Part shown: positions 48,033 through 49,866 of the stretch, piece after piece | How positions within the stretch are numbered: position 1 is the first letter of the stretch | Layout of the letters: each line of letters opens with the position of its first letter | Virus record (IMG/VR): IMGVR_UViG_3300049491_000419 | Coordinates: 1 to 64,000 of that record | Length of the DNA stretch: 64,000 nt | Source of the DNA: a virus | Direction: 5' to 3' (one strand) | Notes under the pieces: model-generated | Seen by the model: the letters and a program-made list of their open reading frames with translations, nothing else | Database searches by the model: none | Told to the model about the DNA's origin: nothing | Program-made: the position numbers and the translations under genes

Positions 48033-48617
48033 ATGTTCCCAGTATCATTTGAAAAAGCTATTGATCATGCCATGCTTTACGAAGTAGGCGGATTTTGGAA
48101 GCTTACACCAGACGTAAGAGCAGGACTTATCGACACACCAGCACAAAGAAAAGCGGTAGGTTATGTCGATGATCCACTTGACCGTGGTGGTGAGACAAAA
48201 TTCGGTGTCGCTAAGAATGCTAATCCAGACCTCGATATTACAAATCTTGATTGGGAAACCGCTGAGGCTGTATATTATGACCGTTATTGGGTTGCAGGTG
48301 CTTGCGGCAGTTTGCCACCGCGAGTTGCCGTTCTACACTTTGACGGCTGTGTTAATCACGGCATTAGTAGAGCTAAGAAATTCTTGCAGGGTGCAGTTGG
48401 TGCTGAACAAGACGGAATTGTCGGGAGACAAACTCTAGCAGCAGTTTCCGCTATGGACCCAATTGCTGTATGTGAAAGTATCTGCTTACAACGTGCAAAA
48501 TTCTACCGTGACATTGTCGCAGCTAAACCAGCTCAAGAAAGATTCTTAAAGGGTTGGTTGCGTAGAATTGACGAAATGCATATCTTTACAACAGATCCAT
48601 CAGTCACTTTTGAGTAA
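48033..48617 (+). CDS. endolysin, GH108-type muramidase
   Basis: 194 aa. MLYEVGGFWKL (catalytic E in E-x-G-G), then GYVDDPLDRGGETKFGVAKN (the D-x-G-G-x-T-K/x-F-G signature), then EAVYYDRYW, and a C-terminal HFDGCVNHGISRAKKFLQG, then GIVGRQTL peptidoglycan-binding region match GH108 endolysins, which cleave the glycan backbone at the end of infection. The GH108 core and the PG_binding_3-like domain are both present. No holin is evident next to it. It has a late box and a strong SD. Confidence 0.88.
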   Translation: MFPVSFEKAIDHAMLYEVGGFWKLTPDVRAGLIDTPAQRKAVGYVDDPLDRGGETKFGVAKNANPDLDITNLDWETAEAVYYDRYWVAGACGSLPPRVAVLHFDGCVNHGISRAKKFLQGAVGAEQDGIVGRQTLAAVSAMDPIAVCESICLQRAKFYRDIVAAKPAQERFLKGWLRRIDEMHIFTTDPSVTFE

Positions 48618-48621
48618 GGAA

Positions 48622-48641
48622 ACAGGGCTTTTTAGCCCTGT
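48622..48641 (+). terminator. terminator-like hairpin after the endolysin
   Basis: ACAGGGCT (48622-48629), loop TTTT, AGCCCTGT (48634-48641): an 8-bp perfect stem 4 nt after the endolysin stop. The following bases (GTCAATATTG) lack a U-tract, so termination may be partial and read into the structured region. Confidence 0.65.
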
Positions 48642-48642
48642 G

Positions 48643-49290
48643 TCAATATTGTCTGCCCACATGCGGCAGCGATGCTAAAATAGCTTAACAGTTCATACTG
48701 TTCAAGCAAATTTACATAGATAGCGGGACTGACGCGCCCCGTGAACGTACAAGGCCACAGCGTATAGGTTTTACACATCAAAACTACAAAGCACACAAAA
48801 CCCAAATCTTTTCTAACTCCCAAAGCAAAATTTCTTTTACACATTATAAGGTTAGCGAGCCTAGTTAATAATTTCGCCGGCGTGTCTTTCGGAAAGGAGA
48901 GCAACAGCCAGTGTCCGCTGAATGTGCAGTGGCAAGATTGTAAGAACGCCACCACTGTGGTAAGTAAGACGATCGATAAAGTTTGCAGCAAATATGTGAA
49001 AACAGGGTATGGTTTGCTGGTCGCGTAAACATTGGCTGAACGATGTTTGCATTGCGATGAGGACAGAAAGATGTTACAACATCCGGTCCCCCTTTCGGAA
49101 CGCTTAATAGCGTGTAGTTGACATAATCAATCCAACACTACAGAAATATTCCGATTCAGAGTCTGGTGACGCTGTCAAGTGTTCCCTATCTAAGGTTTTA
49201 GATACCCTTGGTCTGACTCCTCCGTCAAACTTATCTCTTCTACTGTAGTTTGAGCGAAGCGGCTAAGCCAGAACGAAAAACGAGCGTAGT
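48643..49290 (+). ncRNA. candidate large structured non-coding RNA
   Basis: About 650 nt with no credible gene on either strand but many perfect or near-perfect stems: 48653-48657/48665-48669, 48687-48692/48697-48702, 48724-48727/48738-48741, 48849-48853/48858-48862, 48886-48889/48893-48896, 48915-48920/48927-48932, 48949-48952/48957-48960, 49012-49017/49025-49030, 49061-49064 plus 49070-49075 with 49078-49083 plus 49086-49089, 49101-49104/49109-49112, 49113-49117/49138-49142 and 49187-49193/49198-49204. Three stems contain G-U pairs that are valid only on the plus strand. An A/C-rich, G-poor linker lies at 48769-48848. Size and setting recall phage-borne ornate RNAs such as GOLLD or ROOL, but no consensus was recognised. 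Confidence 0.6.
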
Positions 49291-49866
49291 TTACGAAGCG
49301 AGTGTTTCGTGAGTGGCGCGGTCTGTAAGACCGACAGCAGTGACATCGCTCTTCTTGTAAATGCGTTTTGCGAGTTTAACCACTTCTTGATTCGCTTCTA
49401 AGCTAATGTCTACATGTGGTCTCAACTGTATACGAAATATTTCGTTTGAATACGTTTCGACACCCACGACTCCTGTGAACTTCTGGAAATACAATGTCAC
49501 AAATGCGCTAAGACGCAACTCCACCTCTCCGATCAGTGATGGTAGTTCTTCCTTCGTTACAGGATCAATGTGACGCATGAGTTTAATCTCGCCTTTTGTG
49601 ATGTACATCTCAGTGAACATGTGACGACCTTCTGACTTTTTCATGTAGATGTAACCAGGTTGTCGAACCAATGTCTTTCTGGAAAATAATTCAATATTGA
49701 GTTCTCTATTAGGTAACGTGTCCACTTCATACGGACTCCACTTAATGCTTTGCGCATCAAGTAATCTTGACAGTTCATAAACCCAACGGTGCTTAGGATA
49801 ACGCTCCCAGCATTCGATATCATCCTTAGGGATGTCGAACTCTTGCGTGTCTGTTTTTCTGTGCAT
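49291..49866 (-). CDS. hypothetical protein
   Basis: 191 aa. DTQEFDIPKDDIECWERYPK, then RWVYELSRLLDAQSIKWSPY, then YIYMKKSEGRHMFTEMYIT, then FQKFTGVVGVETYSNEIF, then VDISLEANQEVVKLAKRIYK. A mixed alpha/beta protein with no signal peptide. It is downstream of the gp26 operon and its stop lies at the edge of the structured RNA candidate; its 3' end is palindrome-rich (ACGAAA .. TTTCGT, 49273-49311). Confidence 0.65.
   Translation of the reverse strand: MHRKTDTQEFDIPKDDIECWERYPKHRWVYELSRLLDAQSIKWSPYEVDTLPNRELNIELFSRKTLVRQPGYIYMKKSEGRHMFTEMYITKGEIKLMRHIDPVTKEELPSLIGEVELRLSAFVTLYFQKFTGVVGVETYSNEIFRIQLRPHVDISLEANQEVVKLAKRIYKKSDVTAVGLTDRATHETLAS

Follow-up and report, generated by a model that had tools for sequence, protein, structure and literature searches.

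Genomic setting and layout of the locus

The window, that is, the whole stretch of DNA analysed here, comprises positions 1 to 64,000 of an IMG/VR virus record (G000) that is 91,482 bp long. A T4-like gene order surrounds the RNA locus: genes for gp47-/gp46-type recombination nucleases, an unknown gene and a RusA-like/PDDEXK nuclease gene (minus strand) are followed by an endolysin gene (plus), the RNA region, a gene for a 191-aa protein (minus) and the baseplate hub gene (minus), the gp47/gp46-type names being based on the order of the genes and on syntenic phages with annotation. Judged by the hub protein, the nearest cultured relatives are Pseudomonas PA5oct-like jumbo phages (41–42% identity). 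Family searches with the 191-aa protein gave no family match, and a search of the 64-kb window for tRNAs with ARAGORN returned zero. Homologues and covariation, described below, identify 48.64–49.24 kb as a plus-strand, non-coding structured RNA gene, the transcription of which is predicted. The locus is laid out as follows.

48033..48617, plus strand: endolysin gene with GH108 and peptidoglycan-binding domains (domain searches), the upstream neighbour
48622..48641, plus strand: hairpin ACAGGGCT-TTTT-AGCCCTGT 3' of the endolysin gene, a possible end of the endolysin transcript, judged from its sequence
48641..48654, plus strand: upstream conserved box, consensus TATCAAGATTRTT, part of a promoter-like element, conserved in the homologues with data
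48674..48683, plus strand: -10-like box GCTAAAATAG, consensus ATAAAATAG (homologue comparison)
48684..49240, plus strand: large structured RNA, approximate ends (homologues, covariation)
49291..49866, minus strand: gene for the 191-aa protein, recognized by its conservation, the convergent downstream neighbour

The first-pass annotation had assigned all of 48643–49290 to a structured RNA, an extent that we narrow at both ends: the RNA proper probably starts near 48684, downstream of the promoter-like stretch at 48641–48683, and conservation stops near 49240. Where homologues provide data, the TATCAAGATTRTT and ATAAAATAG boxes keep a fixed spacing around a variable spacer, and the two-box element looks like a dedicated promoter of the RNA. 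The late promoter motif of this phage, GATAAATA, precedes the structural genes and the endolysin gene and differs from the -10-like box, so the RNA would be transcribed from its own promoter rather than a late one, with the endolysin transcript probably ending upstream. In one homologue, L011, a terminator-like hairpin with a T-rich tail occupies the position matching the 48622..48641 hairpin. A sigma-70 consensus scan of the region found zero plus-strand sites, and an intrinsic terminator scan of the window-type RNA likewise found zero on the plus strand, so that the 3' end given for the RNA is approximate. As a separate observation, the spacer between the promoter boxes in L003/L004, L006 and L007 forms a perfect or near-perfect palindrome of 20–26 bp, possibly an operator or terminator.

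Homologues, covariation and the fold

Comparison of the region with GenBank phages by blastn gave no match; IMG/VR contigs carrying the same endolysin, in turn, show ~70–84% identity across 500–690 nt immediately 3' of that gene. Two DNA motif scans and a profile search yielded, after identical cores were dropped, 30 sequences, a few of them near-identical or partial; the alignments accordingly comprise 25–30 sequences from a single phage group, and the ends of the RNA are approximate. The contigs bearing these homologues include ones of 363, 369 and 385 kb and represent uncultured giant phages. A pattern search of genome contigs added four matches of at most a motif-only ~21 nt, which we regard as chance. 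Most homologues sit downstream of the endolysin gene, and some phages with the same endolysin are without the RNA. In L006 and L007, other ORFs separate the RNA from the endolysin gene, yet the RNA retains its upstream box. The interposed ORFs lie at 3046–3867 (L006) and 1901–3067 (L007), and the latter encodes a PKD domain and also gives a glycine-rich match, a weak one. No ORF recurs among the homologues, the longest ORFs in the longer copies ranging from 29 to 105 aa, which bears out the first-pass reading that the interval contains no credible gene.

Folded singly, the region is unremarkable (MFE z-score −1.47 for the plus strand and −0.07 for the minus strand); the MFE was therefore uninformative and was set aside as evidence for an RNA, and a list of local stems, such as the first-pass annotation had drawn up, proves nothing alone. 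Covariation in homologues, which that annotation had proposed as a check, was assessed using our own analogue of R-scape, backed by an independent pair count, against a phylogeny-preserving null model in which substitutions are redistributed on a FastTree tree of 24 sequences. At the level of helices, the expected null count was 0 for most of the reported stems in these 24 sequences. A 99-pair model with two pseudoknots, evaluated on 25 sequences, had 91.2% of cells paired versus 78.6% when shuffled and 35–42% when slid; both sides had changed in 68 of the 99 pairs, compared to 35 in the shuffled control, and the covariation score reached 0.394 versus 0.163 (shuffled) and at most 0.082 (slid). 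Most of the changes are carried by helices 9–16 and 19 of this structure. The all-against-all test over 626 columns returned canonical pairs for 7 of the 9 top pairs and, for one, a G.G to A.A exchange at 48891/48896. This non-canonical covariation closes a hairpin loop in the central domain.

The RNA is about 550 bases long, and its conserved fold consists of approximately 19 helices including the two pseudoknots. Its parts, all on the plus strand, are these.

48687..48702, plus strand: 5' terminal hairpin AACAGT/ACTGTT, with 93% of cells paired in the outer 5 pairs
48723..48763, plus strand: pseudoknot 1, a hairpin (48723–27/48738–42) whose loop 48732–35 pairs with 48760–63; both helices covary (E 0.000)
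48769..48848, plus strand: A-rich, G-poor linker (2 G in 80 bases), apparently unpaired, with indels and low conservation in homologues
48855..48909, plus strand: central domain, helices 48855–58/48874–77, 48879–81/48907–09 and 48886–90/48897–901 (covariation)
48915..48974, plus strand: hairpin 48915–20/48927–32 and nested helices 48936–41/48969–74 and 48948–52/48957–61, with 3, 6 and 5 pairs, respectively, changed on both sides
48986..49058, plus strand: hairpins 48986–92/49013–19, with a conserved UAUGUGAAAACAGGGUAUGG loop, and 49020–31/49044–58 (covariation)
49036..49159, plus strand: pseudoknot 2 (helix 14), loop CUGAA at 49036–40 with UUCAG at 49155–59 (E 0.000)
49061..49153, plus strand: 3' core, helices 49061–64/49086–89, 49070–75/49078–83, 49096–100/49149–53, 49101–04/49109–12 and 49114–18/49137–41 (covariation, model R1)
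49172..49179, plus strand: box R1, CTGTCAAG, a direct repeat with R2 (homologue comparison)
49187..49204, plus strand: hairpin TATCTAA/TTAGATA between R1 and R2, register partly conserved
49222..49229, plus strand: box R2, CCGTCAAA (homologue comparison)

The linker varies in both length and sequence among homologues. Pseudoknot 2 is exchanged as a block in a subclass, from CUGAA/UUCAG to GUUAU/AUAAC, and the 3' core holds a near-invariant AGTTGAYATAANCAATCCAA. Reading the 3' end as P7/P3-like, in the manner of a group I intron, was tried and dropped, as judged by eye, because the pairs fail in L015 and L002.

Covariation thus upholds the structure that the first-pass annotation had pictured as a series of local stems, although that picture missed both pseudoknots. 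Its G-poor linker at 48769–48848 is as described, and the nested GGAC[GATGTT..AACATC]GTCC hairpin is present at 49061–49089. The TATCTAA/TTAGATA hairpin exists in the window at 49187–49204, but across the family its register holds in only 45–65% of cells, and a proposed local GGTT/AGCC hairpin at 48849–48862 fared poorly (E 1.1) against the pairing of 48855–48858 with 48874–48877 (E 0). For the argument from wobble pairs to the plus strand, 14 well-registered helices contain 132 G.U cells and 15 A.C cells, a count that is supportive but short of decisive because plus-strand pairing was used to define the helices.

The direct repeats R1 and R2, ~5–8 nt long, change in concert between lineages (permutation p 0.0005, uncorrected for relatedness): the same variant occurs twice in each of L083 (TCGTCAAG), L005 (CCGTCATG), L015 (GTTAAGT) and L078 (CCCAAAG). 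No complement to either box was found within the RNA that could serve as an intramolecular partner. At the 3' end of the L007 RNA (about 3630–3670), a ~17-nt tandem duplication (CTCCTCCGTCATCATA) creates a third R box.

The 3' core was also cast as a covariance model (R1, 178 positions), which recovers copies outside its training set: L069 (115 bits) and second copies in two genomes of 369–385 kb, at 13.0 kb of G001 (101.6 bits) and 123.5 kb of G003 (101.1 bits). The orthologues of the window RNA in these genomes lie at 195.1 kb and 319.0 kb, respectively, and a third genome, G002, has its RNA at 200.4 kb. The two second copies share a gene neighbourhood, have diverged from the orthologues and retain pseudoknot 2.

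Known RNA families and other occupants of the slot

Rfam 15, including HEARO, raiA and the group I and II introns, gave no gathering-level match in the window and no sensible match in the region at E up to 10, and both ARAGORN and Rfam were negative for tmRNA. The comparison with GOLLD, ROOL, HEARO, raiA and tmRNA models that the first-pass annotation had suggested therefore produced no match in the region, and GOLLD and ROOL, the two known families it had named, are unsupported. The GOLLD model (RF02032) is silent in the RNA region at E up to 10 and throughout the 91 kb of G000, but scores elsewhere in related genomes: G001 has a hit of 212 bits at 160.8 kb, G002 one of 199 bits at 169.1 kb, and Phosso one of 187 bits. 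As the window-type RNAs at 195.1 kb of G001 and 200.4 kb of G002 have no score with the model, these genomes carry GOLLD as an RNA distinct from the window type. We note that bona fide GOLLD RNAs accordingly occur in jumbo phages (G001:160815–161233, G002:169065–169531 and PV764938 33533–34001, the first two filed as L269 and L270). The ROOL model (RF03087) matched neither the region (E up to 10) nor the tested jumbo-phage records, a provisional negative given that the control genomes were likewise silent.

Resemblances to these families are nevertheless evident. The window RNA shares with GOLLD its large size, ornate fold, phage setting and a variable or disordered part, and co-occurs with it in G001 and G002, but differs in sequence, structure and locus. 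GOLLD usually lies near tRNA genes, a proximity that is absent here given the zero tRNAs in the window. ROOL has multiple pseudoknots and a disordered, unconserved linker (PMC12286853), and forms an octameric RNA-only nanocage; the window RNA is similar in size (about 550–650 nt) and pseudoknotting and, as a resemblance only, in the unconserved unpaired linker at 48769–48848 within an ornate fold. How general RNA cages are is a question left explicitly open in the literature (PMC12286853). Among lytic phages, ICP1 makes a ~800-nt ncRNA beside its lysis cluster that is its most abundant transcript (PMC7567579), and phage K produces lncRNAs, large untranslated transcripts (PMC9241854), to which the window RNA, with its predicted transcription, is comparable; sequence and model comparison with the ICP1 gap detected no similarity. 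A search of the open PMC literature found no description of the window-type RNA, which may be listed anonymously in supplementary catalogues of viral RNA candidates. Taken with the homologues and covariation, these searches indicate that the locus almost certainly encodes an independent structured RNA of a class absent from Rfam, as the first-pass annotation had allowed in proposing an undescribed class of large plus-strand phage RNA.

The slot occupied by this RNA, between a Holliday-junction resolvase gene (RusA or endonuclease VII) and the baseplate hub gene, corresponds in annotated jumbo phages to an unannotated gap of ~650–1500 bp, present in PA5oct/MIJ3, Phosso, BF, SNUABM_47, 121Q, XbC2, GAP32, CBB, XaC1 and Munch. 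In Hallingskeid and Kaldavass, the slot has only small called ORFs, and RaK2, Vibrio 2.275.O and Atu_ph07 show no obvious gap. Unannotated RNA-like elements unlike the window type fill the slot in 121Q, BF, GAP32, Munch, PA5oct and Phosso. The 121Q type, found without annotation in Asteriusvirus, Eneladusvirus, Mimasvirus and Munch-like phages, consists, in the orientation of the window RNA, of a TATAAT promoter, a conserved element of ~480–550 nt that covaries and includes pseudoknots, and an intrinsic terminator, which most copies have. The -35 region of the promoter, of GGAAC type, is similar to the divergent class of RpoD-like promoters in CBB (PMC5259590). This element has no match in Rfam. 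It is present in 4–5 copies per genome (3–5 over the phages named next), all on one strand and intergenic where inspected: in 121Q, one copy lies in the slot (L115 9038–9873) and others at 90.3, 192.8, 247.5 and 326.6 kb of KM507819, and BF, GAP32, Munch, XaC1 and RaK2 are also multicopy, with fewer and partial copies in RaK2. Its R1 and R2 boxes flank the intrinsic terminator and read TCGTCAG in BF/GAP32, CGTCAAG or CGTCAA in 121Q/Munch and CTTCAAG in RaK2. They agree within a genome more than between genomes, with many rows uninformative, and therefore hint at a lineage-specific trans partner.

The 121Q and window types resemble each other in slot, orientation, approximate size, a hairpin loop paired far downstream, a direct repeat near the 3' end (CGTCAAG in the 121Q type) and occurrence in several copies per genome, and differ in that the TATAAT promoter and intrinsic terminator belong to the 121Q type. 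The two are unalignable, with no match by nhmmer or model R1. Their common descent is hence unsupported, and the shared slot, orientation, size, pseudoknot and R boxes are to be taken as resemblances; homology of the window type to the PA5oct or Phosso types was likewise sought by profile or covariance model and not found. In PA5oct, L111 9526–11038 is an apparently non-coding element of ~1.4 kb with a late-type GATAAATA motif at its start, in which the record calls tiny ORFs; partial copies lie near 12.9 and 246.2 kb of NC_071039. A fourth type is common to L030 (4570–5660) and L011 (4580–5380), and L011 is a mosaic, with a window-type 5' domain joined to the L030/L011-type core. A hairpin in L011 is flanked by a direct repeat of its own, CAGGCAAAGTNTTCA, and 26 nt of L011 match the PA5oct type.

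Possible function and alternative explanations

We interpret the window RNA, with a probability of roughly 70%, as a large ncRNA that stands alone, acts in trans and, while of the GOLLD/ROOL kind, forms a class of its own. Action in trans is quite probable, given that the next gene downstream is convergent, which leaves the RNA nothing to lead. That the RNA serves in scaffolding or self-assembly, rather than in catalysis or as an antisense RNA, is a tentative preference drawn by analogy, because the pseudoknots are dense and the linker is looped out, as in ROOL and GOLLD (PMC12286853), and because large untranslated RNAs are very abundant in the lytic phages ICP1 (PMC7567579) and K (PMC9241854). 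The RNA would fold into a rigid scaffold locked by its pseudoknots, with the unpaired linker looped out, and might self-assemble or associate with a protein of the phage or host; additional copies could supply dosage, and R1/R2 may be where a partner, different from one phage lineage to the next, makes contact.

Placing the RNA in a known ornate family, GOLLD or ROOL, as a divergent member would account for the size, phage setting, pseudoknots and variable unpaired linker, but cmscan finds neither family in the region at E up to 10, true GOLLD RNAs occupy other loci of G001 and G002, where the window RNA goes unscored, the ROOL model is silent and the window is without tRNAs, so we consider this explanation highly improbable and its GOLLD version already largely refuted. 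Equally improbable to our mind is that the RNA is what remains of a self-splicing intron or a mobile RNA element (group I/II or HEARO-like): the pseudoknotted core, the several copies per genome and the direct repeats R1/R2 would suit such an element, but the Rfam intron and HEARO models do not match, an exon junction and an internal ORF are absent, the repeats flank only ~50 nt, and the diverged second copies share one gene neighbourhood in G001 and G003.

The RNA could instead be a primer or R-loop site for DNA replication, like T4 oriF/oriG. Such an origin would be in keeping with the dispersal of the 121Q-type copies tens of kb apart, with a slot adjoining gp46/gp47, a Holliday-junction resolvase gene and, in Phosso, RNase HI, and with the similar-class promoters that precede DNA-synthesis genes in CBB (PMC5259590). 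Nevertheless, the sign of the GC skew generally does not switch at the copies, and an R-loop primer does not need extensive base-pair covariation, making this role unlikely. Co-orientation of the copies was discarded as a sign of an origin, their common strand following the dominant strand and so being accounted for by strand bias. A cis-acting leader, antiterminator or 3' UTR of the endolysin mRNA is suggested by the position directly 3' of that gene and by the hairpins between R1 and R2, which could act at termination, as R1/R2 flank an intrinsic terminator in the 121Q type. We rate it as rather improbable, considering that the RNA has its own promoter-like element preceded by terminator-like hairpins, that other ORFs intervene in L006 and L007, and that the downstream gene is convergent.

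With the stand-alone, trans-acting RNA as the preferred reading, a broader picture is possible, although we put it forward with more doubt than confidence: one common slot in the recombination/baseplate block of T4-like jumbo phages may usually be occupied by a large structured RNA of at least four interchangeable types (window, 121Q, PA5oct and L030/L011). These RNAs would form multicopy families, have twin 3' boxes recognized by a partner particular to each phage and build large RNA or RNP assemblies during infection, with some of these phages also carrying GOLLD. To our knowledge, large ornate RNAs (GOLLD, ROOL, OLE, raiA) are rare. The finding adds a further class of large RNA, densely covarying and coexisting with GOLLD, and points to an overlooked set of phage RNAs, for which culturable phages that infect E. 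coli K-12 and have parallel multicopy elements, such as Sharanji, would offer a genetic system for testing the role of such RNAs.
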